Made by a program: the position numbers and the translations under genes. Positions 31,126 to 57,480 of a stretch of 64,000 bases of DNA are shown piece by piece (position 1 is the first letter of the stretch; each line of letters opens with the position of its first letter). Source of the stretch: Eutreptiella sp. 'Long Island Sound 2002'. Lineage: Eukaryota; Euglenozoa; Euglenophyceae; Eutreptiales; Eutreptiaceae. The notes under the pieces were generated by a model. It was not told the DNA's origin and ran no database searches. It saw only the letters and a list, made by a program, of their open reading frames with translations. The stretch spans positions 682,001 to 746,000 of the forward strand of contig OZ038385.1 of the NCBI GenBank assembly GCA_964036045.1. Direction: 5' to 3'.

Positions 31126-34100
31126 TCAGGCACCCCTGGCTGCAATCGCCCGGGTGAGTGCTGCCAAGTCCGAAACGTGGATCTTGGTCTTGTGCTTGCG
31201 GATGTACTCCATGAAGGGAGTATTGACCCGCGGCACAAACGAGGAGACGGGTTCCCAGGTGTCGTGGGACGGCCCATAGCCTCGCCAACGAACCTTGAAC
31301 TCCAGACCTCCGGGTGCCGAGGCCTTCGGACGCTGAGCCAGGATCTTCTCGACAGTGTAGTCGTCCTGCTCAGCATAGTCGTCGTCCGAATCGGCCTCAT
31401 GTTTGGCGTAGTCCAGGGACACATGTCGGCCACGGAGGTCGGGTTCCCGCACACAGAGTTGACTCTCGTGGCGCTCCCGGAACTGTCCGTGACCCACCTT
31501 GATGCGGTAGGTGTCCTCACCAATCCTGCGGACCACCTCGCCGGGTGTGAACCAGGTCTTGGTGCGGTGGGTGCCCATGGGGCGGGGTCTGATCACCCAC
31601 ACCGGGTCTCCCACCCTGAACTTCTGCGCTGTCGAGCTCGGGGCGGACTTCTGACGCTCAGCATGCTCCTTCTCAAGCTGCTGGCGGATGTCCTGCGCCG
31701 TTTGCTCTTGCCGCGCGAAGAACTCCTTGGCATCCATGGCCATGCCATCACCAGACAAGGGAAGTCCCCTACCCAGGGGGTCCCTGCCGAAGAGAATCTG
31801 GTGAGGGGACAAACCGCCCGGAGTGGGGGTGTCATGATGGGCCTTCAGAGCAGGCCACATCTCCTCGAACCAGTTCCGACGTGGATTGGTGATGTGGATC
31901 TTGCGCAGCTTCTCGAACAGCTGCCGTCCAGCCACCTCAGCACGGCCGTTAGACCGGCTGAGATAGGCCACGCTCTTGGCATGACGTATCCCCATGAGGG
32001 AACACATAGCCTTGAACCAGCCACCAGTAAACTGGGGCCCTCGGTCACTGCAAATGGTGCGGGGGATGTCAAAGACGGTCAGCCAATGACGAATCATCAT
32101 GACTGCCACCTCCTTGGCAAGCAACCCCTTTTTGCGTGCCGGAACGGCTACAACGTAGCCGCTGTGGCGGTCCACACAGAGAACCACACAGTCAAAGGTC
32201 TCCTTGCCAATGTGCACTTCGGGCATGGAGAAGACGTCCATGGCCACGCTCTCCATGGGCTGGTCAGGAACCGGGGTCCATTGGGGTTCCCCCTTGACGT
32301 TCCGGTTATCGGGATTGCAGGCCTGACAGACCGAACAACCCTTCCTGATCTTCTTGATGGCGGTGTAGAGAACGATATGGTCGATCTCGAACCGACGCTG
32401 CATGTCAAGAGCTTGCTTCTTGACCCCTGGGTGCAGCATGTGGTGGTGCCAAGCTTCACACAGCTCGAGCACCCGGGACTCCGGGACTGGCAGCTTACCA
32501 TTCCGGTAGAGCTTGCCATCTTCCTCGGTCAGCCCCTTTGGCCACTTCTGCCCGTCGTCAGGGTCGGTCACAGCCCTATACTCGGCCGCAAAGGCCTCAG
32601 AACTGGCGTAGTCGTCGGTCCAGTCGTCCTGGAGGCAAGACTCCGGGAAGAGGTGCTTGTCGGACTCGGTTCCCACAGGGGGCGCCGGACCGGGCCTTCC
32701 GCCCGCGGCACCCACAGGGGCGAGTACACTGACCGTTCTGCTCACCCTCGAAGCGAGGGGGGCATCTGCGGCCATGACGACGAAGCATTTGGCACCCTCC
32801 TCCTCCATCAGGCGCTCCATTTCAATGATCCTCTTGGCTTCAGCGGTCTCAGCCTCATCGCCATGGGCAGAGATATCCTGCATGCCCTTGCTGGCGGGAT
32901 AGGCCCACCTACTGAGACAGTCCGCCACGGTGTTATCCTTTCCAGGAACATAAACAACCGTAAGGTCGAACTTGGCCAAGGTCTCGTGCCATCTTGCCCG
33001 TCGGGAGGCGGGACCCGAGGGGGTGTCCACGTGCTCCTTGTGCCACGACTGCAGACTCTGATGGTCGGTGCAGACGGTGACGGGATGGAGGGCTATGTAC
33101 CCAGCCCATTTCCTGAGAGCCATGACGATGGCATACGCCTCCTTTTCACGGGGCGTCCACGTTCGTCTCTGGCCCTCCGCCAGGACTCGGCTCCAGAAGG
33201 CCACGGGCACGTGCCTCCCGTCGTCAAGCACTTGCTCCAACACAGCGCCAATGGCGTAGTCGGAAGCGTCGGTGCGCAGGACGAACCCTCGGTCGGGATC
33301 CACGAGGTGCAGACCCACTGCGGATAGCAGCGCCTGCTTCATCCCCTCAAAGGCACGGTCGGACTCTTCAGTCCAGACCAGAGCCTTCTTGGACCCCTTC
33401 TTGGTCTGCTCTCGGTTGCCCTTGAGCATGGTCGTCATGGGGGCTGCATACTCGGCATACATCTTGATATACCCCGAGTAGTAGTTGCAGAACCCCAGAT
33501 ACGCCCGTAGCTCAGAGACCGTCTTGGGCTTTTCCCAGTGCTCAATCGCAGCCACCTTGCCAGGTATGGGCTTTCGCTGCCCGTTCCCAACTACGTGGCC
33601 AGCGAAGACCACCTCGCTTACCGCAATGGTGGCCTTGTCACTGCTGCCCGTGAGTTTGTGCCGAACCAGAAGGTCCAGCACTCGAGTGACGTCCCTCTCG
33701 TGTGCCTCCAGGAGCTCCTCGTAGCTCATGCTGGGGTCCCCGGACGCGATGATCACGTCGTCCACGAAGGGGTCCGCACAGTCGCGCACCGGCTCAAGCA
33801 GGTTCTCCAGCATCCGCTGAAAAGCCGCATTGCCGTTGGTAACGCCCATAGGCATCACCTTCCACTGGAGAGGTCCAAGTGGGGTGCTCATGGCTGTGCA
33901 GGCACGGGACTCCTCGGCGAGAGGCATCTGATGATAACCATGTTTCAGGTCAATCACCGTGAAGATCCTCCGCCGGTGTTGTTTTTGCAGCATATCCTCA
34001 ATGAGGGGCAGCGTATAGCTGTCGTGCTGCGTTTGGGCGTTCAGGCCGCGGTAGTCGGCCACGAGCCGCCACTCACCGGCAACCTTCTTGGGGACGACGA

Positions 34101-36147
34101 AGCAGGGAGAGGCCCACTCGGAGTGGCACGGCTCAAGCCAGCCTCTCTGGATGAAGTCACGGAGGATCTTCTCCATGGCCTCTTTCCTCTCGCCCCTCAG
34201 GGCAAACTCCCGGTGACGATACACACGGGGGTCCTGCTTCAGTCGTATCTTGGCCTCGCCATACGGTCCACGCACCGGTGGGGGGAACACAGGTTTGCCG
34301 CTGAAGAAGGTCTCGCCATACTTCTGCTTCAGCCTGGCCCTCAACGCCTGGATCTTGGGGCAGTCATCGGACTCCGCCTTGGCTTTCCCGGGCACTTGAA
34401 CCACGGAGCTTACTTGAGGGGTAGCGACCCCGCTCGCTTTCGGCTCAGGTGGTCTTCCCAGGTGGCCCAAAGGGCCATCTCTGGTCTTGCCTCGGAACAG
34501 ATCGCCGTAGGTGGGTGGGTTACCGCCAGGCGGCTCGTCTTGGTTGGACATGTGATCCAGCACCCTCTGCACGAAGGTATTCCCGTCATAGGAACCGGAG
34601 ACGATTGAGTCCACTTCCCACCAGGCTTTGTCCTGGCCTTTGCCCTCACGCTGGTTTCCCCAGTCGTGAAAGGGCTGATCCATATACCCCTGAACCAGAT
34701 CCCACTCCTCTTCAGTGAGGGGGTCTTCGGAGTCCGATTCTTCGATGTCAACAGGGGGAACCGCAAAGCATTGCCTCCAAGGTTCTGCTATGATACGGTT
34801 GACACACACGAAGTCCGTGGTGTCGGCCTGATCAAGGCCCCCATCCACATAGTGGAATTCTGTTGGCCATCTTTGGGGTGGCATGGGCTGTCCCTTAGCG
34901 TCCTGATAGACAGTCTCTCCAGCCGGTAGGACGACCTTGTTCAAGGTCATGTTGGTCAATGAGGCTACCCAATGTCGGGTACTTTCCTCCTCGGTGCATC
35001 CCATAGGAACAACCAGCACTGCCTTGGAGCGGTCCTTGCGAATCTTCGCTATCGCTCTTGGAATGTCCCAACGGGGGCAATGGATCCACATCAATCCCTG
35101 ATGCGGACCCCAGTGCTTCTTCCACGCGGAGTCCTGGGCGCTCCAGTACTTCTCACATACCCGCAGATGGGCGGAGGTTCCTGAAGAGAACGCATCCAGG
35201 GCCGGATCCGACGCTCCCAGGTCCGCGACCACTCGGTACGCCACTTCCGGCCTTACGCCGTACTCCTGGTTCGCTGGCCCAGTAGGCTCAGTGTCCAGCG
35301 CGGCCACTTCGAGCTGATTGCGTTCGGGGTGGATCCATTGGCATTCCACATGGTGCTCAGGTGACGAAAGCCACGAGAGCTGGTCGTCCTGGTACAGGGT
35401 CATGGAGGCCTGGGCCGGGAGGACGCCGGAGTCCGTCTCCATCATGAAGTCGTACCCGACGATCATGTCCCAGTCCATCTCGGCCTCGTAGAAGCTACCG
35501 TGCAGAAGGATTTCCTTGCCGAGGTCTGGGCGGCTCAGCTCACGATGGTTCACGAACTGCAGCCCAATGGCCGCTTCCTTCGTGCCTCCCACCATGTACT
35601 GGCCGTTCGCCACCTTCAGCCTGACAGGTTTCCGACTGTCGGTAAGACACTCTGGCGGAAGCAGGCCAGCCTTGACCAAGCTGACTTGAGCTCCCGTGTC
35701 GACCAACACGTCGAAAACCTTTTCCACTTCCCCGCATAAGGCACGGACCTTAAGATGCAACTGCCGCTCGCGACCGACACGGCGCACGGCGTGCAAACTC
35801 AGGCTCTCTGGCCGTTCCAGAAGCTCCACAAGCGACTGGTGCAGGTCGTGGACAATGGGCTCAGGCTGCCCATCTGCAGCATCCAGCTGCGGTCCGGGTG
35901 ATCCTCCGATACTCTCGGATAGATCCTGTAGTACATCAAACACGTTCTTGGTCGCGAAGGACGGACGGGTGCAAGGGTTCGTGCCTTCACTTGCCCGCAC
36001 CCCGCCTCCGCGACTGGGCGCCAGACCGGGCCTTCCGCCCGCGGCAGTCCCCTTGTGCTTATCGACTCCCGACTGGGATGGATCGGCGCTTCCCACGTCA
36101 CCATCCTGCGACCGCCCTAGCTGGGGCCCTTGGCTGCAGGGGCTCCG
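31126..36147 (-). CDS. pol: Alpha-1 Pol polyprotein (protease, RT, RNase H, integrase, chromodomain)
   Basis: It is open from the codon after the gag UAG (36148-36150) to the stop at 31126, about 1673 codons, in the gag frame. The first in-frame Met comes after the protease active site (VLVDTGAQVSLV, about residue 149), so a separate start would lose the protease. RT motifs are DYRGLNAQTQ, IDLKHGYHQMPL, VMPMGVTNGNAAFQ and the catalytic PFVDDVII at about 796. RNase H shows LRTDASDYAIGAVL and CTDHQSLQSW. Integrase has HHMLHP with CSVCQAC, then VDRHSGY, CSDRGPQF and NGRAEVAGR. The chromodomain (YTVEKILAQR to TWEPVSSFVP) is at about 1600-1655. It would be made as a Gag-Pol fusion. Confidence 0.95.
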   Translation of the reverse strand, partial: RSPCSQGPQLGRSQDGDVGSADPSQSGVDKHKGTAAGGRPGLAPSRGGGVRASEGTNPCTRPSFATKNVFDVLQDLSESIGGSPGPQLDAADGQPEPIVHDLHQSLVELLERPESLSLHAVRRVGRERQLHLKVRALCGEVEKVFDVLVDTGAQVSLVKAGLLPPECLTDSRKPVRLKVANGQYMVGGTKEAAIGLQFVNHRELSRPDLGKEILLHGSFYEAEMDWDMIVGYDFMMETDSGVLPAQASMTLYQDDQLSWLSSPEHHVECQWIHPERNQLEVAALDTEPTGPANQEYGVRPEVAYRVVADLGASDPALDAFSSGTSAHLRVCEKYWSAQDSAWKKHWGPHQGLMWIHCPRWDIPRAIAKIRKDRSKAVLVVPMGCTEEESTRHWVASLTNMTLNKVVLPAGETVYQDAKGQPMPPQRWPTEFHYVDGGLDQADTTDFVCVNRIIAEPWRQCFAVPPVDIEESDSEDPLTEEEWDLVQGYMDQPFHDWGNQREGKGQDKAWWEVDSIVSGSYDGNTFVQRVLDHMSNQDEPPGGNPPTYGDLFRGKTRDGPLGHLGRPPEPKASGVATPQVSSVVQVPGKAKAESDDCPKIQALRARLKQKYGETFFSGKPVFPPPVRGPYGEAKIRLKQDPRVYRHREFALRGERKEAMEKILRDFIQRGWLEPCHSEWASPCFVVPKKVAGEWRLVADYRGLNAQTQHDSYTLPLIEDMLQKQHRRRIFTVIDLKHGYHQMPLAEESRACTAMSTPLGPLQWKVMPMGVTNGNAAFQRMLENLLEPVRDCADPFVDDVIIASGDPSMSYEELLEAHERDVTRVLDLLVRHKLTGSSDKATIAVSEVVFAGHVVGNGQRKPIPGKVAAIEHWEKPKTVSELRAYLGFCNYYSGYIKMYAEYAAPMTTMLKGNREQTKKGSKKALVWTEESDRAFEGMKQALLSAVGLHLVDPDRGFVLRTDASDYAIGAVLEQVLDDGRHVPVAFWSRVLAEGQRRTWTPREKEAYAIVMALRKWAGYIALHPVTVCTDHQSLQSWHKEHVDTPSGPASRRARWHETLAKFDLTVVYVPGKDNTVADCLSRWAYPASKGMQDISAHGDEAETAEAKRIIEMERLMEEEGAKCFVVMAADAPLASRVSRTVSVLAPVGAAGGRPGPAPPVGTESDKHLFPESCLQDDWTDDYASSEAFAAEYRAVTDPDDGQKWPKGLTEEDGKLYRNGKLPVPESRVLELCEAWHHHMLHPGVKKQALDMQRRFEIDHIVLYTAIKKIRKGCSVCQACNPDNRNVKGEPQWTPVPDQPMESVAMDVFSMPEVHIGKETFDCVVLCVDRHSGYVVAVPARKKGLLAKEVAVMMIRHWLTVFDIPRTICSDRGPQFTGGWFKAMCSLMGIRHAKSVAYLSRSNGRAEVAGRQLFEKLRKIHITNPRRNWFEEMWPALKAHHDTPTPGGLSPHQILFGRDPLGRGLPLSGDGMAMDAKEFFARQEQTAQDIRQQLEKEHAERQKSAPSSTAQKFRVGDPVWVIRPRPMGTHRTKTWFTPGEVVRRIGEDTYRIKVGHGQFRERHESQLCVREPDLRGRHVSLDYAKHEADSDDDYAEQDDYTVEKILAQRPKASAPGGLEFKVRWRGYGPSHDTWEPVSSFVPRVNTPFMEYIRKHKTKIHVSDLAALTRAIAARGA

Positions 36148-36153
36148 CTAGGG
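36115..36153 (-). promoter_or_regulatory. Candidate gag-pol readthrough site of Alpha-1: UAG buried in a stem
   Basis: Gag ends with UAG (36148-36150) followed by CGG. The stop is inside CCCTAGC (36147-36153 on the minus strand), which is perfectly complementary to GCTAGGG about 25 bases downstream (36115-36121). The stop codon would be paired in a 7-bp stem that could extend further with internal loops. Pol continues in frame. Readthrough is inferred; alternatively pol is made some other way. Confidence 0.5.
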
Positions 36154-39100
36154 GGCGTCGGTTGTGGAAGAGGGGGTGTTCTCCTCGGCCTCAACGTCGT
36201 TGATGCCCTTCTTTCTTCCCCCTTTACCTCCTCCTTTACCCTTCTTGTCCTTGTCCTTGTTCTGGTCATTCTGGTTGTTCTCCTTGTTCTTGTTGTCCGA
36301 CCTGGGGACCCAGTTCCGTTTGATCTCCTGGATCTCCTTGGCCAACTCGGTTCCCACCGACGACATCAGCTTGGCCAGCTCGTCCTTGTCCACCTCCATC
36401 TTGGCTTCCCGGATACCCGCGGGCGCACGCTTCTTCGACCCTTGCGCCTTCTTGTAAGCCTCCGTGTCGGCCTTGTGGACGGGGCATGTTCGGTGGTCAT
36501 GGTTGAAGCCTTTCTTCCTCCCATAACACACGAAACAGCCCTGAGGGTGAGCTCGTATGAACTCCCCAAAGGACAGCGGAGGGTCGCCAATGCGGCGAGG
36601 ATCCCTCTTCTCCTGCTTCCTCCAACCCTGCTGCAGGGGCTTCCAGTTTCCCGGCTTGCTCCCCGTGTTCAGGTTCTTGGCCACGAAGGCACAAACGGCC
36701 ACTTCGGCGGGCTCATCGTCGTCGTCATCGTCGACGAGAGTCTCATCGCCGCAGGCTCCCGCTGGGTCCATGGCAGATTCCCCGCCAGGTCCCTCGCCAA
36801 CGTAGTTGACGTCGCGGTCGCCGGGCCTCAACCCGCGGGTGTGGTGGAGGTTTCGGTACTCTTTGAGTACTTTCTCGCCAACCCACTCCAGGATCTCGTC
36901 GCAGCTCATCCGCGCCGGGATGGGCTGCAGACGGATGGTCTGGCCGCTCAACTCACAATCGTCAAGGCGCCACATCGCGGTCTTCTCGCGATCGCCCGAG
37001 ACGGTGATGAGAAGAGCGTTCCGCAGGGAGTGCCGTTTGACATCCCGGGCCACGTTCTTCTTCGCCCAAGACACAACGTTCGTATGATACTCCTTGGGGA
37101 GCATCATCTTGACCGTGTCGTTGGACTTGGCCCTCTTGGATTCCTCCTTGGTGACCCTCTTGATCCATGCTTCCGGCAGCATGGAGAGCAGGCGAGCCTG
37201 CTCGTCACCCTCGTTCCAATCCTCCACGTTGCGGCGGAAGAGGGTGTATTTCCCTCGGAAGTCCCGCCACTCTCGTAGGCGGATCTTCCGTCCATGATGC
37301 TCAAGCTTGATGGACTTCCAGCGCTTGGCAGCCACCTGCGGAGCGTCCACCCGCTCCTGCTCGTTGAGCCACTTCTTGGCGTCCTTGAGGGTCTTGATTC
37401 TCCCCTCCTTGGTCGCCACGAAGTATAGCTCGCCGAGCACTTCCGGCAGGCGGTACCTGAACCGTTTGAAGACATACTTCTCCGCATCAGCGGGAGGTAT
37501 GTCTTCAGTGACGGTCAGCCCCCAATCGTCCAGCTTCTCCAAGAAGCGGTCGAGGTTGAGGGGGTTGCCGTCGTACATGGGGGGCTTGATGTCCTTCAAG
37601 TCTTCCCACACGGCGGCGTCCGCGGCCTTAGAGACCATGAACGCCGGCCGCGAGGTCGACCGAGGTTCCCATCGGCCTCGCCCACGGACTCCCACGGCCG
37701 CCACGTCCATCTCCTCCATGGAATCCCTGTGGCTACGCCGCGGTTCCTCCACGTACGCTGAACCGAAATGTTCACGCCGTACTGCATCCATGTACGCATC
37801 CTCATCACGGCGCCGGCGGCTGCGTTCAGCGGCCTCCCGTCGTACACCACGCGGCGGGCTGATGTCGAACTCCTCCAGGTCCAGGTCCAGGTCCAGGTCC
37901 TCACCTTCGCCGACATCCCACTCCACGTCTCCTCTGGGGACCTCATCCCTGAGTCCACCATAACGTCCTCCAGCCCTGGGGATTGGCACCGGGGCTGGTG
38001 GCGGGCGTCGGGGGCGTACAGGCGTCCGCGGTGGGGCACGGCGGTTGTGGTAGTCAGCGCTGAGCCACTCATCGCGCCATTCCTCACTGCCACTGCCGGG
38101 CGGCGCGCGCTCGTTGCAGCGGCCCGCGCTGTGGTGAGAGGGGGCGGTGAGAGAGGGGGCACTGGCGCTGGGGCAACTCCTGGGGGCTCCGCCGGGGGCG
38201 TGGGGTCTGCCTGGACCTGGTCCGGGTCCCCAGCCGTCGTCCGACGAGCCAGACTCCAGGGGTGGGTGGTCGCTGCCGACTCTCCCACGGGCTTCCAGCG
38301 CATCCAGCCTCTCCTGCAGGCCGCTGACGACGTTGGTCAGCGACTTGGTCTCGGCCCTGGCGATGTCCAGGTCCTTCTGCGCGCGCGCGGCGACCGTGGA
38401 GATGCGAGCCATCTCGACCTTGCCCGTGTCTACCTCGCACTCGAGGGCAAAGACCCTCCTGCGGAGGTAGACAATCCACCGCCACGTGGTGTCCGGGTCG
38501 CCGTTCCCTGGTGGGTCGTCGGGGTCCCCAGGGGGTCCTCCAGGAGGGCCACCGCCGGGTCCGCCCGGTCCAGGGGCTCCTCCCCCGCCCGGTGGTCCGC
38601 CTCCAGGGGGTCCACTTGGTGGGCGTCCTCCAGGGGGTCCTGATGGTCCTCCGCCAGGGGGTCCCGGTGGGTCTCCGCCGGGTCGCCTCGGTGGGTCCGA
38701 GGATGGGCGCTTCCTCGTGATGCCGAACTCCATGTCGTCATCCTCGTCCATGTCGCCCCACCTGGGCGTCTCGGTCTCGGAGGACTCGGAGCTCCGGTAG
38801 GGAGGAGGGGGATCCTCATCCTCACCTTCCATGGGGACGTCTCCGCCACCTCCGCCCGTCCAAGCCACCACTTGGCGATGTCGACGGCCTCGTTCATCCC
38901 CGTCACTGGCGGTGAAGAAGGGGTCACTGTCGTGGGGGTGCCCACCCGCTGGCCTCCGCGGCCTCTCGGGGGTCTTCCCCTTGCCCTTCCTCCGTCGACG
39001 GGCGGTGGTGCTACCGCTCCCACTGCTGCCCGTGTCCGCCTCATCCAGCTTCATCCTGGAGGAGGCGTCCCCTTCGAAAAGCCTTCGAAGGGTCTCCACT

Positions 39101-40476
39101 CGCGATCCTCCCGGGGGAGTCTCGTGGCGGAGTTTGGCCTCTGCCTCCTCCATTGCGGCGGCGGTGGCTGCAGCAGCTCGCGCTTCGGCTTCTTCCCGAG
39201 CACGAGCCGCCTCGGCTTCCCGGGCCTGCTGCAGCTGCGCCTTCTGCGCCTCCAACGCCGCCAGCTCCGCCTCCGTCTTGGCCTTCTCCTCAGCGACCTT
39301 CCGTCGCGCGGCCTCGATGGCTTCCTTCTTGGCGGCGTCCTCCTGGGCCTTAGCCGTCGCTTCGGCGTGGGCCCTTTCCTCCGCCTCCTTCTTTGCCCTC
39401 CCTTGGGCAAGCGCCTCTTCCAGCGCCTTCACCTCGGCCTCCTTGCAGGCAATGGCCTCCTGCGTCAGGCGGGCTTCCTCGTCGGCTGCCGCCAACTCAC
39501 CGTTGACCTGGGCAGTTGCTGCCCCATGGGCGGCTACGGCCGTGAGTCCGGCCGCAATGGCCGCCACGGTCTGGGTGTGGATGGCCATGCCATGCGCCCA
39601 CTGCACAGCCTCCTCCTGGGCGATGCCGGCGGCGCCCTCCACGGCAGCGCTGTACTGCCTGGCCCGTTGCCGGGCAAACCGACGGTTGCAGGGCACCCCA
39701 CAGGCGCGCTCAGAGGCGCGCGCCACGTCCCTTTCGGGAGCGACGCTGCTGCTGGAGCTGGCCTGGTCGGCCGGCGTCCTCCCGCGGTGGGCCGACTCGA
39801 TGTCGCTGCTGGGGCCTGCTGAGGCCTGCCGGGCCTTCAGGAGCAGCGAACGGGGCTTGGCCTGGGTCTGCTTGGCGACTTGGATGTAGTCGCCAAGGGT
39901 GGTGGAGCCGGGGTGGTGTCCACCATTGGGCCGTTGGGGACTGGGGGCTGGGGTTCCGCCCTTGGCGCCTTGGGCGGCTTCGGCAGCCAGGGACTCCTGG
40001 TACTCCCGCCACCTCCGGTCCCTCTTCTTGTCCCCGGCGGACCGCTTCTCCGTCCCCGGAGACGCGCTGCTGCTGCCCTGCAGCCTGGGCTCGCTTCCCG
40101 GTTCCGGGAACTTCTTCTCGATCACGTCCCACAGGGAGACGTTGATCGAGGCGCCCGACGGGTAGGCGTTGGGGTCCTCGTCCTCCTTGATCCCGTCGGG
40201 GCGCAGCCCTTCGCCGGGCCTGTCCGGCCGGGTCCACGCCCTCCAGCGCCTCTGCTGGTGGCGGTACTCGTACCCTTCCGCCCGCAGCCAGTCCTCCACG
40301 GCCTGCAGGCGGTCGGGGGCGATGTCCGTGCGGAGCTCGAAGCTCCTGGGCATGCCGCCTTCGCACTGGGGGTTGCTGTGGCGGTAGTGCTGGTCCCCAA
40401 CCAACCCACGCAGCAGGCGTGCTGCATGGGGGTGGGGCCGCGGCCACGTCCTGCCCGCTTGCTGCCAATTCACCAT
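36148..40476 (-). CDS. gag: Alpha-1 Gag, unusually large
   Basis: I chose the ATG at 40476 (GCCATGG context); the frame is open a little further upstream without ATG. At 1442 residues it is several times the usual Ty3/gypsy Gag. Regions in order are a structured N-terminus; an Ala/Glu/Lys coiled coil at about 330-450 (EAEVKALEEAL, KAKTEAELAALEAQKAQLQQ); a Pro/Gly tract at about 590-660; an Arg-rich and acidic linker; a capsid-like domain at about 960-1215 (YDGNPLNLDRFLEKLDDW, WLNEQERVD, FRGKYTLFRRNVEDW); a zinc knuckle variant CX2CX8HX4C (CFVCYGRKKGFNHDHRTC) at about 1313; and a Lys/Gly-rich tail. The capsid and zinc regions support Gag identity. The N-terminal 900 residues have no recognised family. 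Confidence 0.9.
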   Translation of the reverse strand: MVNWQQAGRTWPRPHPHAARLLRGLVGDQHYRHSNPQCEGGMPRSFELRTDIAPDRLQAVEDWLRAEGYEYRHQQRRWRAWTRPDRPGEGLRPDGIKEDEDPNAYPSGASINVSLWDVIEKKFPEPGSEPRLQGSSSASPGTEKRSAGDKKRDRRWREYQESLAAEAAQGAKGGTPAPSPQRPNGGHHPGSTTLGDYIQVAKQTQAKPRSLLLKARQASAGPSSDIESAHRGRTPADQASSSSSVAPERDVARASERACGVPCNRRFARQRARQYSAAVEGAAGIAQEEAVQWAHGMAIHTQTVAAIAAGLTAVAAHGAATAQVNGELAAADEEARLTQEAIACKEAEVKALEEALAQGRAKKEAEERAHAEATAKAQEDAAKKEAIEAARRKVAEEKAKTEAELAALEAQKAQLQQAREAEAARAREEAEARAAAATAAAMEEAEAKLRHETPPGGSRVETLRRLFEGDASSRMKLDEADTGSSGSGSTTARRRRKGKGKTPERPRRPAGGHPHDSDPFFTASDGDERGRRHRQVVAWTGGGGGDVPMEGEDEDPPPPYRSSESSETETPRWGDMDEDDDMEFGITRKRPSSDPPRRPGGDPPGPPGGGPSGPPGGRPPSGPPGGGPPGGGGAPGPGGPGGGPPGGPPGDPDDPPGNGDPDTTWRWIVYLRRRVFALECEVDTGKVEMARISTVAARAQKDLDIARAETKSLTNVVSGLQERLDALEARGRVGSDHPPLESGSSDDGWGPGPGPGRPHAPGGAPRSCPSASAPSLTAPSHHSAGRCNERAPPGSGSEEWRDEWLSADYHNRRAPPRTPVRPRRPPPAPVPIPRAGGRYGGLRDEVPRGDVEWDVGEGEDLDLDLDLEEFDISPPRGVRREAAERSRRRRDEDAYMDAVRREHFGSAYVEEPRRSHRDSMEEMDVAAVGVRGRGRWEPRSTSRPAFMVSKAADAAVWEDLKDIKPPMYDGNPLNLDRFLEKLDDWGLTVTEDIPPADAEKYVFKRFRYRLPEVLGELYFVATKEGRIKTLKDAKKWLNEQERVDAPQVAAKRWKSIKLEHHGRKIRLREWRDFRGKYTLFRRNVEDWNEGDEQARLLSMLPEAWIKRVTKEESKRAKSNDTVKMMLPKEYHTNVVSWAKKNVARDVKRHSLRNALLITVSGDREKTAMWRLDDCELSGQTIRLQPIPARMSCDEILEWVGEKVLKEYRNLHHTRGLRPGDRDVNYVGEGPGGESAMDPAGACGDETLVDDDDDDEPAEVAVCAFVAKNLNTGSKPGNWKPLQQGWRKQEKRDPRRIGDPPLSFGEFIRAHPQGCFVCYGRKKGFNHDHRTCPVHKADTEAYKKAQGSKKRAPAGIREAKMEVDKDELAKLMSSVGTELAKEIQEIKRNWVPRSDNKNKENNQNDQNKDKDKKGKGGGKGGRKKGINDVEAEENTPSSTTDAP

Positions 40477-43873: not shown

Positions 43874-43885
43874 ATCCTCCTGTGG

Positions 43886-47192: not shown

Positions 47193-47959
<767 letters not shown>

Positions 47960-48599: not shown

Positions 48600-49153
48600 T
48601 GGCTTCAAAAGTGCAAATATGGCTATTCAGGGGCACTTTTTGCACCCTCCGGACGATTATTTTGAGTAAAAGGCATGTAGGGTCACAATTTGTTGCTTGG
48701 CAAGCCTAACCGAGCTCTAGGGAAACATTTCATTAATGCCAAATCACACGAAAGCACAACGACATCAATGAAATCAACCATCGCGGGTTCAAAAGTGCAA
48801 ATACAGCTGTTTGGGAGATTGTTGCCACCAAGTGTTTCTAGCACATTGCCTAAGCCGGCTCTTTGGGTTGCCATCCAACGCGCGTTGCAATGCACGGTTT
48901 TTGCTTTGCTAGTTTTGGTGTGTGTTGTGTGTTGTGTGTGTGATATTTCATCTGCCCATAACGAGACACATGACATGGGCAACAATCCAATTTGAAACCG
49001 GATGAAAATTTCCCCGTACCTCGTTAGGTCACAAACATGATATGAGTGCAATGTGGGCAATGAAGCAATGGCAGCGCAAACACAAAGCCAGGCGATGTTC
49101 TCAAACTGCCTCAATTACGTCAATTATTACGGGTTGGAAATGTGGCAGGTTTG
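48600..49153 (+). repeat. 184-bp tandem array, left of Delta (diverged copies)
   Basis: TTTTTGCACCC at about 48633 and its counterpart at about 48817 are 184 bases apart and match the array at 60555-61640. Later copies toward 49000 are too diverged to align by eye. The last bases before Delta (GGAAATGTGGCAGGTTTG) join the sequence after Delta to rebuild a normal unit. Confidence 0.75.
49149..49153. repeat. Target-site duplication of Delta, left copy (GTTTG)
   Basis: GTTTG here is repeated at 60550-60554. Because bases next to it also match, the exact frame of the duplication can shift by one base (GTTTG or TTTGA). Confidence 0.88.
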
Positions 49154-49951
49154 AGTAAGAAAAAGTGCTTTTCCATTGCTTTGGGACATACTCTAGTTGT
49201 ATTAGAGATGCACTGAGCATCCATGCATTTTTATCTTAGTATTGGTCCAGCCAAAAGTGGTGAGAACACATTTTGACCTATGGAACCAAACACCCAATCA
49301 GGATATGGAGTGGACCCCTTAATCCCCTTTCAATCAGAAGTAAAACATCTTTTCCTGAGTTGACTGAGCACTGACATACCTAAGGTAGAACCTATGAATT
49401 TATCTATGTTTTTCCATGAATACTTATCTGCCCTAGTGGTATGCACCATAGGGGGTTAGGCACCTCTTTTTGAGAGGTCCTGGGTTCAATTCCTGGTCAG
49501 CCTAACTAAGTAGGAAGATCCCATGTGACATGGCAGTGACCTCATCGCCACATACCATGCCACCTCAGCACATATGGGACCCAAAACAAAGAGTGCACAT
49601 CTCCTAAGATGGCACTATGAAGAGAGAGTGATCCTGAGGCAGTTTTCTAACTCTTTTCCCAAAACATTTCAGCTATCTCTGTGAATATGCATTCATTTGT
49701 ATCCTGAGTTGCAGTTTCTGTGAATATCTAATCATCTTTCACTGTTTACACTGCAGCCCTTCATGCTTTGATCCTGAATTACCTTCTCCTTGCATACTAT
49801 TGGCTTGGGCTATCCTGGATTGAGTTGGCTTTACTGTATTTCAACAAACAAAAGCTTTTCATCATCCAAAACCAGCAGCAGGACACCCTACAGCAACAAC
49901 AAGCAGCAGGAGAAGCAAAAACACAGTGCTGAAAACACTATAAACTTTTCT
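49154..49951 (+). repeat. Delta 5' LTR
   Basis: The 798-bp LTR starts AGTAAGAAAAAG and ends AAACTTTTCT, so its ends are AG and CT rather than TG and CA. The boundary follows from the target duplication and from the flank change at both copies. It contains a tRNA-like segment at 49429-49503. Confidence 0.92.
49429..49503 (+). ncRNA. tRNA-like module inside Delta LTR
   Basis: The B-box GGTTCAATTCC sits in a T-arm of 5 pairs (CTGGG with CCTGG, loop TTCAATT). Just before it is a perfect 5-bp anticodon-like arm (ACCTC with GAGGT, loop TTTTTGA, which would present UUU). TAGTGGTATGC further upstream resembles an A box. There is no matching acceptor stem and the variable loop is only one base, so it is not a normal tRNA gene. 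It is identical at 60027-60101 in the other LTR. It may act as an internal Pol III promoter or be a captured tRNA-derived sequence. Confidence 0.45.
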
Positions 49952-49963
49952 GGTAGCAAGAGG
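49951..49963 (+). promoter_or_regulatory. Delta primer-binding site (initiator tRNA-Met type)
   Basis: TGGTAGCAAGAGG starts at the last base of the LTR. It matches the iMet-complementary TGGTAGCAGAGG of Gamma except for one extra A. Confidence 0.75.
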
Positions 49964-50049
49964 CAGCCTGTCTCTGTGCACCGGCAGCGACCCCGCGCCG
50001 TACAACCAGTGCTCCGAGCAGGCAAATACAAGCAGAAGGGCGGATTAAG
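49964..50049 (+). other. Delta leader
   Basis: An 86-base leader lies between the primer-binding site and the gag ATG, with nothing else recognised. Confidence 0.6.
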
Positions 50050-52551
50050 ATGGATCAAGGAAGAGTGGACGCCGAGGTGAACACAGCGCCAGCGCCAGAA
50101 GCACCGGCAAGGCCGGCGCCTGACGCTGTACCTTCGGTGGAGCCCTTACATGGGCCAATGGATACGGCGGAGGACTCCTTGGATGGCCTCCAGACGGCCT
50201 TTGGGGCCCTGTCGGTGAAGGAAATGGTCTCTCAGCCTCAGCCTGTGAAGAGGAAGAGAGGAAACGAGAGCGAGAAGGATGCTGGAGAAGGAGCAGACGA
50301 AGGAGAGGAGCAAGGGCAAGACCCGACGGATGTCCCTACCTTCGAAGGCGCACCAAGCGCTTCTGGCCTCCATGCATCACCCTCTCCCATAACCACCACA
50401 CTCCCAGCCGCCGCTACATCCACTTCCACAACCAACCAGCCTATGGCAGAGGGCACAGGCTTTACTGGCATGCCTCACTACCCCGCCTATGGCATGGGCC
50501 CACCTACCGCTGCGCTCCTTGAGGCAACTACTGCCAGTGAGCCGGTGGCTTCCAGCTCTGCGCCGCGTTGGTATGCGGCTGACCATCCCCATCCACTCCA
50601 CGCCACTGGAACCTACATGGAAGTTACTGGGTATGCTCCTGGGTGTGCACCTGGGTATGCACCCCTGAGTGGGTTGAGGAGAGGACCAGAGTCTCTGGGA
50701 GGCAGGAGTAGAGGATCGGGAAGATCCTCCAACAGGTCCCTGACGCGGTCGGAGATCAATGAGGTGCTCCGAGGAGCCACTTCGCAAATCGTGAGCGACC
50801 TCACGCAAGAAATCAGGGAGAAACTGCAGCCCCTGATGATCCCGTCCCATGCGTCACCTACGACAGTGGGAATGTCACCCCACCGAGTACAGGCTAACCA
50901 CCTGGCGGCAGGGTTGACGAATACCCTGGGGAGCCTGAGGAGCCGACCGATGCCGACTCCTGCAGCAGTACCGAGAAGTCCATTCGTCCCGAGGACAGCC
51001 CAGCCGCCCTACAGTCACGTGACGAACTCGACGAGGGCCGAGCTGGACCAGCTGGGGCTGACAGCCCTAAGAGCTATGGTGGACGTGGAGCCTTATGGCT
51101 CCAGTGATCTAGGCGGTGACCCCTCCGATGATGGGCCGCCTTCGATGACTTCTTCTTCGCCATCGGATGACGAAGACCCTGAGGACCCCGAGGACCCCAA
51201 GGGTAAGAAGAAGAAGAAGAAGAAGAAGAAGACCCGACGCCCTGAAGGACGCCGAGCTCAGGAGGCGAAGGCCATTGCCACCTCCAAGATAGTGGTGAAC
51301 CTGCCTGAATTCACAGGCAAGGACCTCAGCGAGTTCGCTGAGAACTTTGGCCGGTTCCTACGACTGACCGGCCAAACCCGCGCGAGTGGGCGAGTGAAGT
51401 GCGACCTGCTCCTGCAGTGCTGCAAGACGAAGTACCTGGAGAAGCAGGTCAGGCAGATCGTCACCAACTCCGCCACCTTTGCTGACGTGTTGGTTGCCCT
51501 GGAGAGGCAGTACCCAACCTACGAGACCGACCTCTCCATCAGGGCCGAGATCCAGAACCTGCCCGTGCTGCCGAACAACCCCAAACCCGGCAGGGTCTCC
51601 GAGCTGTTGGCGGACCTTGACCACTGGGCTGGACGACTGACGCCCGGTTCCTACAGCAGCGACGACCTGCTGTTTTGGTTGTGCTCCAAGCTCCCCCGTG
51701 AGCTATGGGACGAGTGCCGTCTGACGGCTGAGCGCAAGGCTAGATCCCTCCGCTACGAGGATCTATGCGTGCTGCTCCTGGAGATGGCGCTGGAGAAGGA
51801 GAGCGACCAACACCTGAACCACTACCGTCCTGGTGGTGGAGGTTCTGGAGGCAAAGGGTACCAAGGGTCCCGACCTGGGCAGGGGACTACCCCCAAACAC
51901 GCCCACGCCCGCCTAATGGAGAACGTGAAGGAGCTATTCTGGTGTGATGCCAGAGATGAACAGGGCCACCTGCAGCATGCCTCCGACTGCGAGCAGCGAG
52001 ACTGCTTTGTTGTCCAGGGGAAGCAGCAGGAAAAGATCACCGGCGCCAAGGTGAAGATGCCGGATCATTACCGCTGCACCATCACGTGTGCATTCTGCGG
52101 TAAGCGGAAGCACTATGAGGACGAGTGCTACCATAAGCAACGCCTATCGGCGAAGCTTAGGGGGGAAGATCCTGGCAAAAGCTCAGGCAAAGGTGGAGGC
52201 AAGGCCAAAGGCAACAACTCCGGCAAGGGCAAGTCGAAAGGACGTGGTCAAGGTGGTCAAGACAAGGGTCAAGGCGGACGAGGAGGAGGCGCTAATCGCC
52301 AGAACGACAACAAGAACAAGGACAAGAACGGAGGTAACCCCAACCCTAATCCAGGGGGGAACTCCGAGCCCTCTGGAGGGCAGTCTGGACCTACCACACG
52401 CTCACAGACGCAGGCCCAGCAAGAACAAGGAGCCAAGCGTGAGCATGAAGGTGGTGACGACGGCAACGCCAAGAAGAGAAGCCGTTTCATGAGGATGGCC
52501 CGCAAATTGCGGAACAAGGGGTTCGAGGTGACCTGTCCCGCGGAATTCTGA
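50050..52551 (+). CDS. gag: Delta Gag
   Basis: 833 residues starting at the first ATG after the leader. The N-terminal 370 residues are Pro/Ser/Gly-rich and acidic, followed by a run of nine lysines at about residue 387 after an Asp/Glu/Pro stretch. The capsid-like region lies at about 415-600 (LPEFTGKDLSEFAENFGRFL, LLLQCCKTKYLEKQV, FWLCSKLPRELWDECR). A classical zinc knuckle CX2CX4HX4C (CAFCGKRKHYEDEC) is at about 681-694, followed by a Lys/Gly/Asn-rich RNA-binding tail. The frame ends in UGA at 52549-52551, and pol continues in the same frame. Confidence 0.94.
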   Translation: MDQGRVDAEVNTAPAPEAPARPAPDAVPSVEPLHGPMDTAEDSLDGLQTAFGALSVKEMVSQPQPVKRKRGNESEKDAGEGADEGEEQGQDPTDVPTFEGAPSASGLHASPSPITTTLPAAATSTSTTNQPMAEGTGFTGMPHYPAYGMGPPTAALLEATTASEPVASSSAPRWYAADHPHPLHATGTYMEVTGYAPGCAPGYAPLSGLRRGPESLGGRSRGSGRSSNRSLTRSEINEVLRGATSQIVSDLTQEIREKLQPLMIPSHASPTTVGMSPHRVQANHLAAGLTNTLGSLRSRPMPTPAAVPRSPFVPRTAQPPYSHVTNSTRAELDQLGLTALRAMVDVEPYGSSDLGGDPSDDGPPSMTSSSPSDDEDPEDPEDPKGKKKKKKKKKTRRPEGRRAQEAKAIATSKIVVNLPEFTGKDLSEFAENFGRFLRLTGQTRASGRVKCDLLLQCCKTKYLEKQVRQIVTNSATFADVLVALERQYPTYETDLSIRAEIQNLPVLPNNPKPGRVSELLADLDHWAGRLTPGSYSSDDLLFWLCSKLPRELWDECRLTAERKARSLRYEDLCVLLLEMALEKESDQHLNHYRPGGGGSGGKGYQGSRPGQGTTPKHAHARLMENVKELFWCDARDEQGHLQHASDCEQRDCFVVQGKQQEKITGAKVKMPDHYRCTITCAFCGKRKHYEDECYHKQRLSAKLRGEDPGKSSGKGGGKAKGNNSGKGKSKGRGQGGQDKGQGGRGGGANRQNDNKNKDKNGGNPNPNPGGNSEPSGGQSGPTTRSQTQAQQEQGAKREHEGGDDGNAKKRSRFMRMARKLRNKGFEVTCPAEF

Positions 52552-52592
52552 CGGGGACGCTCTGGTGGCACCCAAGACCTGGTGTTTTGGGT
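52549..52592 (+). promoter_or_regulatory. Candidate gag-pol readthrough signal of Delta: UGA-CGG plus hairpin
   Basis: The stop is UGA followed by CGG, one of the known leaky contexts (type II, as in several plant RNA viruses). Eighteen bases further is a 9-bp hairpin (52570-52578 with 52584-52592, ACCCAAGAC with GTTTTGGGT, one G-U pair) with a 5-base loop. The pol frame is open from the very next codon and has no ATG before the protease active site. Confidence 0.65.
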
Positions 52593-55500
52593 ACGTATCC
52601 GACTAGGGGGACGTGAATACCTGGGGGTACTGGATACTGGAGCCACAATATCGATAGTGGCCAAGAAAATTTTACCCTGTGGGAGCCTGAAGAACACCAT
52701 GACCACCGCCGCTATACGGATGGGGGATGGACATGTGGTGCACAGCTGCGGGGACTGCGAAGTGGAGGTACCTATGGGCTCCAGGACTATCGCCCATCGG
52801 TTCTTTGTGATGGACACTGATGCCTTCGACTTTGTACTGGGTACTGACTTCTTCGTGCAGCACTCCCAGATACAATCCCTGACGCTGCAAGCGCCCTACC
52901 TCCTGTACGTGGACCACGGCAGTGGCAGAGAGTCTGTGCCACTGGAGCAGTCGGAACATACCTCGAGTTACCTGAGACTATCGAAGGAGGAGCCCTCGAA
53001 CATGATGGCGGCCTCCAAAACTGAGGACTATCAACTATTGGGGGAAGTCCTAGACCAAGGTCTGAAGGAGTTGGGTTACTCTCGAGAAGACCTAAGTGTG
53101 GAACTGTTCGCCAGCGACAAGCAGCATGTACTGGACCTATACTGCAGTAAGGGGAAGAACTGCAGCTACAAATTTTACTGGCCCTCTTTCGGGATGGCCT
53201 ACGGGAACCCCAGATTCAGTGAACTGGGGAAGGTGCTGACCAAGGTGGCCTTGGAACGGTCCCGTATGGCCCTGTGTTCCCCCGATTGGGGAGCCCATGG
53301 GGGCAACGAGTACTGGCGAACCCTCCTTGATAAGCTGACTATCAGCTCTGTGCGGTTACCTGATGAGGCCATCTACGTGCCTCTGGGACGCAAGACGCCC
53401 ATTGGGAAGCCCGGATCGGGGAGTATGCTCAGCGTGGTGGACGGAAGTCTTACCACCATCCCCTGGGAAGACCTGGACCCTACTCTGGTCCAGGCTATAC
53501 AACGAGAAAGCGATGGACTCGCCTTGGGTGACTTGAAGGATCGCCTACGACCTCAAGATGCTGTTGAAACTACACCCGGAGGAGATGAGTACGTCGTGAC
53601 TGACACCAACGCCCCCAACTCTCCCTGTCATGTACCTGTTCCTGATGGAGTCTCTGAGTGTGGACTATCTGAGCTACCTAGCTCTATCCACTCAGACGAC
53701 GAAACTGAGCACGACGCCTTCTTCGTGCAGACTGCGGTGGAAGAAGTGGAGAACGCCGAGTACGTCGCCCCACTAAAACCCCTACTCTCCATGAGGGTGG
53801 AAGACCCCGTGGATGAAGAGCTGGACCCTCGATCCAGGCTCAGGGAGTATGTGGATTCCAAGAGGAAGTTGGTGGCGAAAAAGCTATGCTACGCGAAGCC
53901 TACCCGCAGCTCATGGCCACTGAAGCAAGGACGGATGGGAGACCTATCCCAACTGAAGGAGGACCTCGAACAGAAGATCACCACCTGGCAAAGGGAGGTA
54001 GATCTCAAGCTCATGAAGAGCGTATGGGGTGCCCATGTGAGGACCCCAGAGGAGGACAACCTCTCGGAGGAATGTGTATGTGAACCCCCTAAAGCGTGCC
54101 TATGTTGCCATCGTCCACCGGAGATGGTTGAGCAAGACCTTCTGTATGCCTACCAAGGGCTGAAGGATGCTACCGCGGGCGAAGAGTCGGTGGAGGATCA
54201 CCTCCCGACGTCTATTCAAGGGGCAAGCAACTTACACTCCGACGAGGACATGGAGGACAAGATCAAGGTACTGGACCCGCGGGTGCAAAAGCTGATAAGG
54301 ACCTATCTGGAGGTGTTCGGAGAACTACCCCCTCCAGCCTCATGCGACAAGCTGGTACAGATGGACCTCAAGCTGAAACCCGAGTTCGTGGGTCACAAGA
54401 TTCGGAGGAGACCCTATCCAGCTCCTAAAGAGCAGGCCGACGAGATTGAGCGACAGATACAAGAATGTATCGACGCTGGCCTAGTCCTGGAGTACAAGGA
54501 TGGGGACTACCCCCTACACTGCAGCCCCTGTTTCCTGGTGGCTAAACCTGGGTCTACAGCCAAACGGCTGGTAGTGGACTATGGAGAGCTGAACAAGAAG
54601 ACGCTGAACCACTCAGGGTCCATTCCCAATATGGAGTCTACCCTGGAGAAGATAGCCTCCTGTCGCTACAAGACCAAGATGGACAAGCGAAGTGGATTCT
54701 GGCAAGTGGACCTGACGCCCAACGCGCAGGAACTACTGGCCTTCATCACCCCTCAGGGGAGGGTATTCAAGTGGAAGGTCATGCCATTCGGCGTGGCTAA
54801 CGCCCCCGCTCTGTTCCAAGAGCTGATGAACAAGATCTTGTCCATCCTACGAAGGAGACCTAAGGTGCAGGAGCTCATATCCCGTGGGGCCCAGATGGAG
54901 GCTCACATCGACGATGTATGCCTCGGGACCAATACCCAGGAGGATCACCTAATCCTCTTGGGTGAGTTCTTTGCGGTCTGCCAGGAGAACCACACACGAC
55001 TCAAGCTGGAGAAGTGTGAGTTCATGCAGGAGATCATGCAGTACCTGGGGTTTGACGTTGGCTATGGGTGGTGGACCCCAGCGGCCTCTAAGGCCAAACC
55101 CCTGATGGATGCCAAGGTACGACACGAAGACCCCAAGAAAAGACTTCATGATGTACGCAGTTTCATTGGCGCGTGCAACTTCTATCGCCGCCACATCAAA
55201 AAGTTCACCTACACCAGCGCGGTACTGACTGACTTGATCAAGAAGAGTACTACTTGGCGCTGGGGCCCACAAGAGCAACAAGCGTTTGACGAGCTCAAAG
55301 ACAAGGTAGCCAACGCTAAGTGCTTGGGCGTGCCTAGGGCACAGGGGGAGATTATCCTGGTGACCGACGCCAGCAATGTGGGCGGTGGTGGAACGTTGTT
55401 CCAGTGGCAAGCACTAGAGAAGGAGGAGTTCGACTCGGCCATTTCCCAATGGGGGACGGAAGGTCTCAACAGAGATGGAACCCTCAAGCACAGCTACCCT

Positions 55501-57480
55501 GACGACAAGTGGGTCCTAGTACCTCTGGGCCACTGGAACTGGAAGTGGAACCAGGCCAGGGGGAACTACTCCACCTATGAGCAGGAACTGCTCGCGGGTA
55601 TGCTGGTGCTATCCTCACAAGCACGACTGTTGGGGAGTAACCCTGTGGTCTGGCTATGCGACCAAGAACCGGTCCGCAGTTTCCAGAAGGGCCCCCCACC
55701 TGAGAAGGCCAAGCTACGTCGCTGGTGGACCTACCTCAGTCAACTACGGCTGACGGTACACCATATCCAGGGAGTGAAGAACGAGTGTGCCGACTACATC
55801 AGCCGCAACAACTTCGACGCCCTGATTGGTGCCCGGTCTGAAGCGCTGGCTAAGGAAGCGTTCAGCCGTATGGACGTACACCTGGACCTGAACATGACCA
55901 TGATATGCCCCCTGGATGGACTCCAACAATCGGAGTACCTACAGGAGTTTGGGGATATCTACCGGCGCCTGGAGAAACGCCTTGAACCCCTCCTGGTCAA
56001 CCAAGACCAGTGGAAGCGGGACAAGAGCTACCTCTGGCACGAGGACCGCATCGTGGTGCCTAGTGACCGAGTCCCAGCGCTGCTGAAGTGGACCCATGAG
56101 TCCAGTGGTCATGTGGGTGCTGACCGTACCCTGAGGCTGTTCAAGCAGTGGTTCCACACTACGTGGACTGACGACCAGCTGCGGAAGACGCTCCTGCCTA
56201 TCGTGGACAAGTGCCCGTGCAGGTCCTGTAAACCAGGGGATATCAGGGACAGAGGTCTCTACTCGACCCTGCCCATCCCTCACTGTGCTAACAGTGTTCT
56301 ATACGTGGACTACACGGAGATGCCGAAGTTCGGGGGCTATGACTTCGCCCTCGTGGTAACCTGTGAGTTGAGCAGGTTTACCAGGGTGTTCCAATGTACC
56401 AAGCACATTACCGGAGAGGAGACTATCAAGATACTCCTGGAGGAGTGGTTTTGTGTCTATGGGGCGCCCAAGGAGATCAACTCCGATGAGGACGTACGAG
56501 TACGCTCAGATACTGGCTGGTACAAGAGGGTCTTGAGGTCCCTCAATGTCCAGGTGTCTACGGGGATTCCCTACTCTCACACGAGCAACCCCCTATGTGA
56601 GCGACAGATTCGTGTCCTGAAGGAGAACGTCAGGATATGGTGCAAAACTGAACGCACCAGAGACTGGGTGAGACTACTCCCCGTCATATCCTTGATGATG
56701 AACTCTCAAGAGAGTTCAGCTACTGGCTACTCGCCACATGAGCTATTCATGGTGCGCCCGGCGTGGTTCCTACATGCCCCCTATCCAGAGGACACCCATT
56801 CTGCTGTGGGTGAGTGGGTCCAAGAGCAACAAGCGAGGGTGGACAAGGCCAAGGCTATGCTCCAGAGAGTGAGGGAGCGTCAGTGGAACAAAAAGAACAA
56901 GCACCGAGTACCGGCCACCTACCAAGAGGGGGACTGGGTGCTGGTGCACCACAGTCGACTACCCGCCTGGCCTCGCTCTACCAGCGATGACCCATACTTC
57001 GGGCCGTACAAGATTCTATCTGTGGATGGTCACCGTATCACGGTGCGGTGTTCTCCCCGTCTAGGGGGGACCCTGGTGTGCGCCGCTCAACACCTGAAGC
57101 GCTACCATGATCCTGAAGACCTCTGTGGGGAGGAGTGGGAGCTGAACGACGAGGAAATCGCCGCTCTGGACCTACAAGGGGCTGCCAGCCCTATGGAAGT
57201 TGAAGGTGAACTCCCCGACATGAACGCCGAGGAGATGGCTAAGGAGGGCTTCTACCTGGTGAAGTCTGTCCTACGCCACCGCTATCGCCAGGGTTGGCGC
57301 TTCCTCACCCTCTGGGAAGGGTTTGGAGTCGAAGAGGCCACCTGGGATCCCTTCTCTGCATTTGTTCTACCTGAGGGACGCCTAAACTCAGTTCTGGTTG
57401 ACTACTTGTCCGAGAACAACCTTGGTGAGTTACTGAGGCTCGCTGAGGCGCTTGCCTCCAAGACTAAAGCTAGGGACTGA
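52552..57480 (+). CDS. pol: Delta Pol polyprotein (protease, RT, RNase H, integrase, chromodomain)
   Basis: About 1642 codons, open from the codon after the gag UGA; the first ATG lies after the protease motif LGVLDTGATISIVAK. RT motifs are RLVVDYGELNKK, KMDKRSGFWQVDL, VMPFGVANAPALFQ and a catalytic AHIDDVCL, where the usual Tyr is His. RNase H shows VTDASNVGGGGTLF, YSTYEQELLAGM and CDQEPVRSF. Integrase has HESSGH with CPCRSC, then DDE at YVDYTEM, NSDEDVRV and LCERQIRVLKEN, and the ATGYSPHELFM motif. The C-terminal chromodomain is YLVKSVLRHRYRQGWRFLTL to ATWDPFSAF. No frameshift or extra stop is present. It is diverged from the Alpha, Beta and Gamma pols. Confidence 0.95.
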   Translation, partial: RGRSGGTQDLVFWVRIRLGGREYLGVLDTGATISIVAKKILPCGSLKNTMTTAAIRMGDGHVVHSCGDCEVEVPMGSRTIAHRFFVMDTDAFDFVLGTDFFVQHSQIQSLTLQAPYLLYVDHGSGRESVPLEQSEHTSSYLRLSKEEPSNMMAASKTEDYQLLGEVLDQGLKELGYSREDLSVELFASDKQHVLDLYCSKGKNCSYKFYWPSFGMAYGNPRFSELGKVLTKVALERSRMALCSPDWGAHGGNEYWRTLLDKLTISSVRLPDEAIYVPLGRKTPIGKPGSGSMLSVVDGSLTTIPWEDLDPTLVQAIQRESDGLALGDLKDRLRPQDAVETTPGGDEYVVTDTNAPNSPCHVPVPDGVSECGLSELPSSIHSDDETEHDAFFVQTAVEEVENAEYVAPLKPLLSMRVEDPVDEELDPRSRLREYVDSKRKLVAKKLCYAKPTRSSWPLKQGRMGDLSQLKEDLEQKITTWQREVDLKLMKSVWGAHVRTPEEDNLSEECVCEPPKACLCCHRPPEMVEQDLLYAYQGLKDATAGEESVEDHLPTSIQGASNLHSDEDMEDKIKVLDPRVQKLIRTYLEVFGELPPPASCDKLVQMDLKLKPEFVGHKIRRRPYPAPKEQADEIERQIQECIDAGLVLEYKDGDYPLHCSPCFLVAKPGSTAKRLVVDYGELNKKTLNHSGSIPNMESTLEKIASCRYKTKMDKRSGFWQVDLTPNAQELLAFITPQGRVFKWKVMPFGVANAPALFQELMNKILSILRRRPKVQELISRGAQMEAHIDDVCLGTNTQEDHLILLGEFFAVCQENHTRLKLEKCEFMQEIMQYLGFDVGYGWWTPAASKAKPLMDAKVRHEDPKKRLHDVRSFIGACNFYRRHIKKFTYTSAVLTDLIKKSTTWRWGPQEQQAFDELKDKVANAKCLGVPRAQGEIILVTDASNVGGGGTLFQWQALEKEEFDSAISQWGTEGLNRDGTLKHSYPDDKWVLVPLGHWNWKWNQARGNYSTYEQELLAGMLVLSSQARLLGSNPVVWLCDQEPVRSFQKGPPPEKAKLRRWWTYLSQLRLTVHHIQGVKNECADYISRNNFDALIGARSEALAKEAFSRMDVHLDLNMTMICPLDGLQQSEYLQEFGDIYRRLEKRLEPLLVNQDQWKRDKSYLWHEDRIVVPSDRVPALLKWTHESSGHVGADRTLRLFKQWFHTTWTDDQLRKTLLPIVDKCPCRSCKPGDIRDRGLYSTLPIPHCANSVLYVDYTEMPKFGGYDFALVVTCELSRFTRVFQCTKHITGEETIKILLEEWFCVYGAPKEINSDEDVRVRSDTGWYKRVLRSLNVQVSTGIPYSHTSNPLCERQIRVLKENVRIWCKTERTRDWVRLLPVISLMMNSQESSATGYSPHELFMVRPAWFLHAPYPEDTHSAVGEWVQEQQARVDKAKAMLQRVRERQWNKKNKHRVPATYQEGDWVLVHHSRLPAWPRSTSDDPYFGPYKILSVDGHRITVRCSPRLGGTLVCAAQHLKRYHDPEDLCGEEWELNDEEIAALDLQGAASPMEVEGELPDMNAEEMAKEGFYLVKSVLRHRYRQGWRFLTLWEGFGVEEATWDPFSAFVLPEGRLNSVLVDYLSENNLGELLRLAEALASKTKARD

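Follow-up and report, generated by a model that had tools for sequence, protein, structure and literature searches.

Gag-stop-pol elements at the locus

Three Ty3/gypsy elements, Alpha-1, Gamma and Delta, lie in the window, the 64,000-nucleotide stretch of Eutreptiella sp. 'Long Island Sound 2002' DNA analysed here, and in each of them gag and pol occupy one reading frame with a stop codon at their junction. On the minus strand, the Alpha-1 gag frame (36148-40527; 1459 codons plus UAG) closes with a UAG (36148-36150) followed by CGG, and the pol frame (31126-36147; 1673 codons) continues with protease, RT, RNase H, integrase and a chromodomain. Delta, on the plus strand, has a gag frame of 864 codons plus UGA (49957-52551) with a CCHC-like knuckle near its 3′ end as judged by eye, a junction UGA (52549-52551) also followed by CGG, and a pol frame of 1642 codons (52552-57480) encoding protease, RT, RNase H and integrase. 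The Pfam order RVT_1, RNase H, Integrase_H2C2, rve is that of Ty3/gypsy in both pols, the protease and integrase matches of each scoring under the curated cut-offs. A chromodomain match above its cut-off (PF00385, E 7e-9; residues 1597-1633 of 1673) sits at the C terminus of the Alpha-1 integrase, which makes Alpha a chromovirus. The Delta C terminus had no PF00385 match in Pfam and is chromodomain-like by eye only.

As the first-pass annotation of this DNA had proposed, a single junction stop interrupts frames that are otherwise open. The 3134 codons of Alpha-1 gag plus pol contain stops only at codons 1460 (TAG) and 3134 (the terminal TGA), and the 2508 codons of Delta only at 865 (TGA) and 2508 (again a terminal TGA), that is, one non-terminal stop each against approximately 67 and 76, respectively, predicted from composition under a model in which codon positions vary independently at unchanged base frequencies. 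In the remaining two frames of the two elements, 60 to 104 stops occur. A changed genetic code, in which UAG or UGA would be a sense codon for the host, is scarcely credible, given that in-frame stops occur in Alpha and Delta only at the junction and the pol end where composition predicts dozens, and that two codons, UAG and UGA, would have to be reassigned. Likewise in keeping with the annotation, neither pol has an ATG ahead of the protease active site: the first ATG after the stop is codon 185 in Alpha-1 and codon 50 in Delta, and the protease DTGA motif is at codons 150 and 28, respectively. In-frame GTG codons are present at pol codons 18 (Alpha-1) and 11 (Delta).

Both elements have the flanking repeats of Ty3/gypsy elements, LTRs in Delta and long LTR-like repeats, one of them incomplete, in Alpha. 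Repeat comparison placed the Delta 5′ LTR (800 nt) at 49153-49952 and the 3′ LTR at 59751-60550, both on the plus strand; because the pair is 99.6% identical, Delta is young. At the LTR end, TGGTAGCAAGAGGCAGCC (49951-49968) is a candidate primer binding site, which we take to resemble the end of the initiator-Met tRNA. The 5′ side of Delta bears a 22-bp minisatellite of ~48 copies (46085-47158) and then a (CT)n tract (47195-47353), and a tandem array of 184-bp units (60551-61617) begins within ~10 bases of the 3′ LTR end. For Alpha-1 (minus strand), the downstream repeat, 4.3 kb long, was placed at 26690-30994 by the same comparison, and the upstream repeat (40928-43873), 98% identical to 26690-29636, apparently lacks ~1354 nt of its start. 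Two 4.3-kb Alpha repeats stand head to tail at 22394-30994 without internal sequence between them, and the shortened third copy at 40928-43873 comes after another Alpha pol end (43874-44677); the Alpha elements here, with their very long LTRs, are in tandem or have recombined.

Gamma, on the minus strand, had been assigned the same layout, and this held only in part. The 3′ part of its gag (11104-11832) ends in an in-frame UAG (11104-11106) followed by GGG, yet pol is interrupted by a TAA (9313-9315) that divides it into a 5′ part (9313-11103) and a part encoding RT, RNase H and integrase (6520-9312) that follows the Ty3/gypsy order in Pfam, with integrase under the curated cut-offs. The protease motif reads DNRS in place of DTGA, and the 596 codons after the UAG contain no ATG. 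Gamma is decayed and, as one copy, is by itself weak evidence for the layout. A GC-rich, strongly skewed stretch at 12000-15500 separates its gag 3′ part from a 730-codon ORF (15776-17968) with a weak DUF1759 match (E 0.01). A search for a spliced-leader sequence was negative, and a 10-nt portion of it matched once where 0.23 matches would be expected.

The junction stop among genomic copies

Copies were sought in the 2.28-Gb host genome with patterns that left the junction codon free. The Delta pattern occurred at 4603 places and the Alpha pattern at 5959, totals that include places with 1-2 flank mismatches; junction codons were read only where the flanks were exact. Among the matches listed, which are the first 100 exact-flank places in contig order for each family (all on contig C1 for Alpha), the junction was TGA in 100/100 for Delta, and TAG in 99 and TAA in one for Alpha. 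Delta copies from a pol search also had TGA throughout (28/28, being 28 of the 29 places found, the window's own included), as did all 58 rows of a Delta alignment. These rows represent 57 distinct copies, again with the window's own, since L011 and L031 are the same place, and 20 of them span only 1301 nt. The other in-frame stops in the alignment, spread over 29 positions, were each confined to one row, and the diverged row L058 accounts for 13 of the positions. The alignment of copies had been put forward as a check, and it came out in favour of a functional junction stop: the stop was kept in the listed and fetched Alpha and Delta copies and other stops were scattered.

A sense codon at the junction, which if present in young copies had been named beforehand as evidence against readthrough, was absent from those copies and was seen only in proteins from single-member gene calls. 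Calls open across the site read S, L and T for Delta and Q and C for Alpha, and the Delta gag calls P0114, P0131 and P0177 read R, C and R. Because six of these eight residues are possibly one step from a stop (Delta T and Alpha C need two) and none is common to most, they fit decay of the stop. Of the 491 gag clusters 120 were listed, and of these 96 terminate at the junction, 19 stop short of it and 5 run past it, 3 of those cleanly; in the single-member gene call P0015, the junction site was lost by deletion. IMG/VR viral contigs yielded no match to the Alpha or Delta pol patterns, a search that covers close relatives only.

Among the fetched Delta copies, identity to the window's own ranges from 86 to 100% and is mostly 96-99%; these copies therefore share recent descent. 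Such descent would suit an accidental nonsense mutation multiplied in one burst of copies, the parent having made a single Gag-Pol. Against that account, two diverged Alpha copies that came from outside the pattern selection, L067 (93.4% identity over 2.7 kb) and L087, both carry TAG as well.

Selection around the stop

Delta changes common to at least 4 of the 58 rows comprised 59 synonymous, 17 nonsynonymous and 0 nonsense changes in gag (pN/pS 0.087) and 40, 6 and 0, respectively, in the first 500 codons of pol (pN/pS 0.047). Single-row changes comprised 173 synonymous, 378 nonsynonymous and 24 nonsense in gag (pN/pS 0.66), and 102, 157 and 6 in the same part of pol (pN/pS 0.48). The changes found in at least 4 rows were probably inherited from replicating parents. 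Both genes show purifying selection in these shared changes, and replicating parents therefore needed both while carrying the stop, a history at odds with an accidental nonsense mutation.

The 60 nt 3′ of the Alpha stop (36088-36147, minus strand) form a candidate cis element, with 0 shared synonymous changes and 1 shared nonsynonymous change over 22 rows. The corresponding 60 nt of Delta are also without a shared synonymous change, as are other stretches. Low variation near the stop is also partly a selection bias, because the search pattern dictated some of these positions and exact flanks were the basis on which 30 Delta loci and all but two (L067 and L087) of the 22 Alpha rows were picked.

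Sister families and families without the stop

Two further families carry the arrangement. The Delta sister (P0014, a cluster of 5370 members; 52.7% pol identity to Delta) has TAG at the homologous place in 27/27 copies, with GGG next in all variants printed, and the aligned sites read VKFPDEE* against VTCPAEF*. Because UGA in Delta faces UAG in its sister at a homologous site, it is the stop itself that is kept. The Alpha sister (P0048, 4545 members; 50.5% identity to Alpha) has 20 TAG and 1 TAA among 21 junctions and, as in Alpha, Arg-Ser-Pro after the stop; its upstream frame, a candidate gag, is open for 472 codons in copy L108. Overall, in Alpha, Delta and the two sisters a lone conserved stop separates gag, a candidate gag in the case of the Alpha sister, from a pol in the same frame, and Gamma shows its junction in one copy only.

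The first pol ATG of the Delta sister lies 3′ of the protease site, as in Alpha and Delta, and in these three families an independent pol start at an ATG would lose the protease, as had been argued for Alpha-1 and Delta. The argument does not extend to the Alpha sister, whose ATG at codon 92 precedes the protease site at codon 135.

An RT tree placed Alpha, the Alpha sister and Gamma together and Delta with its sister, the two groups being far apart; the tree is midpoint-rooted and the programme warns of long branches. On the Alpha-Gamma side of this midpoint-rooted tree, a single ORF of P0025 carries both gag-type and RT domains, and the stop perhaps arose more than once for that reason. In P0023, a Delta-related cluster of 53 members, gag and protease form a continuous reading frame, and a protein-level comparison shows a gap at the stop site; the gag-stop-pol layout is therefore not universal. 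The suggestion of a mechanism shared by three families and inherited lineage-wide was thus strengthened by two additional families and weakened by P0023.

P0023 is also what an accidental stop would lead one to expect, namely a relative with an intact gag-protease frame. Set against this are the five families in two distant RT groups that carry the stop and the different codons at one homologous place in Delta and its sister. The results for Alpha and Delta already speak against an accidental stop, and we regard it as very improbable.

Stop context and RNA structure

The triplet after the stop is CGG in Delta and Alpha, GGG in the Delta sister and Gamma, and AGG in the Alpha sister. NGG thus follows in 5/5 families, against a share of 7.5% among Alpha and Delta codons, a pattern seen after the fact among families that are not independent. 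A table in PMC3542737, as excerpted, covers viral readthrough sites both known and suspected; it lists UGA-CGG or UGA-CUA as type II and UAG-G or UAG-GGR as type III. By this excerpt, Delta UGA-CGG has a type II context, and UAG-GGG of Gamma and the Delta sister has a type III context. Alpha UAG-CGG and Alpha sister UAG-AGG are absent from the excerpted context list and do not fit UAG-G. Permissive decoding by the host, which had been offered as an explanation, need not be invoked, since unrelated viruses with two of these contexts appear in the same excerpt.

Folding of 48-90 nt windows 3′ of the five junctions revealed no consistent excess stability (z +0.2 to -2.2; 20 windows, five families) and so lends readthrough no clear backing. 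In a 120-window stability scan, the two windows nearest the stop ranked 69 and 76 in Delta, 75 and 119 in Alpha, and 7 and 22 in Gamma. Gamma windows were the most stable, with z -2.6 at +15 nt in the one Gamma copy. Folding places a 9-bp hairpin downstream of the Delta stop, in windows that are not unusually stable, and a positional match between the hairpins of Delta and its sister, sought by eye, was not found.

Relation to known systems

Murine leukaemia virus has, like these elements, a zero-frame gag-stop-pol layout with UAG; gammaretroviruses carry env and, downstream of the stop, a compact pseudoknot, and the present elements are not assigned to that genus. The gammaretrovirus genus context, UAG-G, fits UAG-GGG of Gamma and the Delta sister in the excerpted table (PMC3542737). 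The type II sites of that table (alphavirus, tobravirus, furovirus and others) include UGA-CGG, exactly the Delta context; they belong to RNA-virus genes with a known or suspected extended stem-loop; the region 3′ of the Delta stop is not unusually stable in the folding windows.

Readthrough of the stop had initially been described as the gammaretrovirus strategy, a view that is too narrow, as the layout is not unique to that genus and is known in Ty3/gypsy. According to the portions of PMC4600332 and PMC10085805 consulted, the fission-yeast Ty3/gypsy elements Tj1 (Schizosaccharomyces japonicus), Tosmo1-3 and Tcry1 have an in-frame stop between gag and pol, the Tj1 pol ORF has no AUG, and the Tj1 stop is required for integration. 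The strategy is therefore not new for Ty3/gypsy. In those accounts, Tj1, Tosmo and Tcry share a strictly conserved GAA-UGA-CU; here the contexts are UGA-CGG, UAG-GGG, UAG-CGG and UAG-AGG and, unlike in the fission-yeast elements, the stop codon itself differs between Delta and its sister. In Cer1, gag and pol are not separated by a stop, as stated in the excerpt of PMC10309623. As far as our literature searches show, these families, their contexts and the use of different stops in sister families are new, and they extend gag-stop-pol in Ty3/gypsy beyond fission yeasts.

Readthrough as the probable mode of pol expression

Together, these observations support well a functional in-frame stop for readthrough, the interpretation originally given; from sequence we infer the readthrough event itself, its rate and any stimulating RNA element. 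We consider it highly probable that the conserved stop serves occasional readthrough to give a low Gag-Pol share. Most ribosomes would halt at the junction stop, with Gag as the main product, and a minority would decode the UAG or UGA as a sense codon and carry on translating, without a change of frame, through protease, RT and integrase, an arrangement that would supply few enzymes per many shell proteins. Selection would keep the stop for the sake of the Gag to Gag-Pol ratio. Readthrough is supported because pol in Alpha, Delta and the Delta sister has its first ATG after the protease site.

Alternatively, pol could be expressed on its own, whether from a transcript that is spliced or starts internally or through initiation at an internal or non-AUG site, and the stop would simply end gag. 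Tca2 of Candida albicans is the warning case: in this Ty1/copia element an in-frame UGA separates gag and pol, and the consulted parts of PMC7175516 report a reporter study that found no readthrough, together with weak promoter activity in the junction. The GTG codons early in Alpha and Delta pol and the ATG that precedes the protease in the Alpha sister would be available to such initiation. A separately made pol needs no shared frame with gag, yet pol is in frame in all five families, and the frame is open from the first post-stop codon, with no shared nonsense change there in Delta. In addition, two of the stop contexts match known or suspected readthrough sites in the excerpted viral table. 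Tca2 also belongs to the copia group, and overall we judge separate production of pol improbable, although less so than an accidental stop or a changed code.

Beyond readthrough at individual junctions, an actively maintained readthrough rule, old or repeatedly evolved, might operate among the Ty3/gypsy elements of this genome, given that the five families fall into two distant RT groups. The selected unit would be the stop itself, with NGG next in all five and ~60 nt without shared synonymous changes after it in Alpha and Delta. We advance this broader reading only tentatively and rate it as rather doubtful, the more so as P0023 continues from gag into protease without a stop. The use of UGA and UAG at one homologous site points to selection for a leaky stop and not for one codon. 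Four well-sampled families, or five with Gamma, some with thousands of genomic places, form a natural series with differing stops and contexts in which the need for the stop and the sequence rules of readthrough can be compared.

A methyltransferase-like stretch in pol

The interval between protease and RT in the pols of Alpha-1 (31126-36147, minus strand), Gamma (9313-11103, minus strand) and Delta (52552-57480, plus strand) resembles by eye an adenine methyltransferase of the Dam type whose motif is degenerate, and this stretch may be a captured domain shared by the three pols. Alpha pol has a weak PF05869 match (E 0.033). The relatives P0054 and P0055 carry PF05869, and the relative P0056 carries PF00145.
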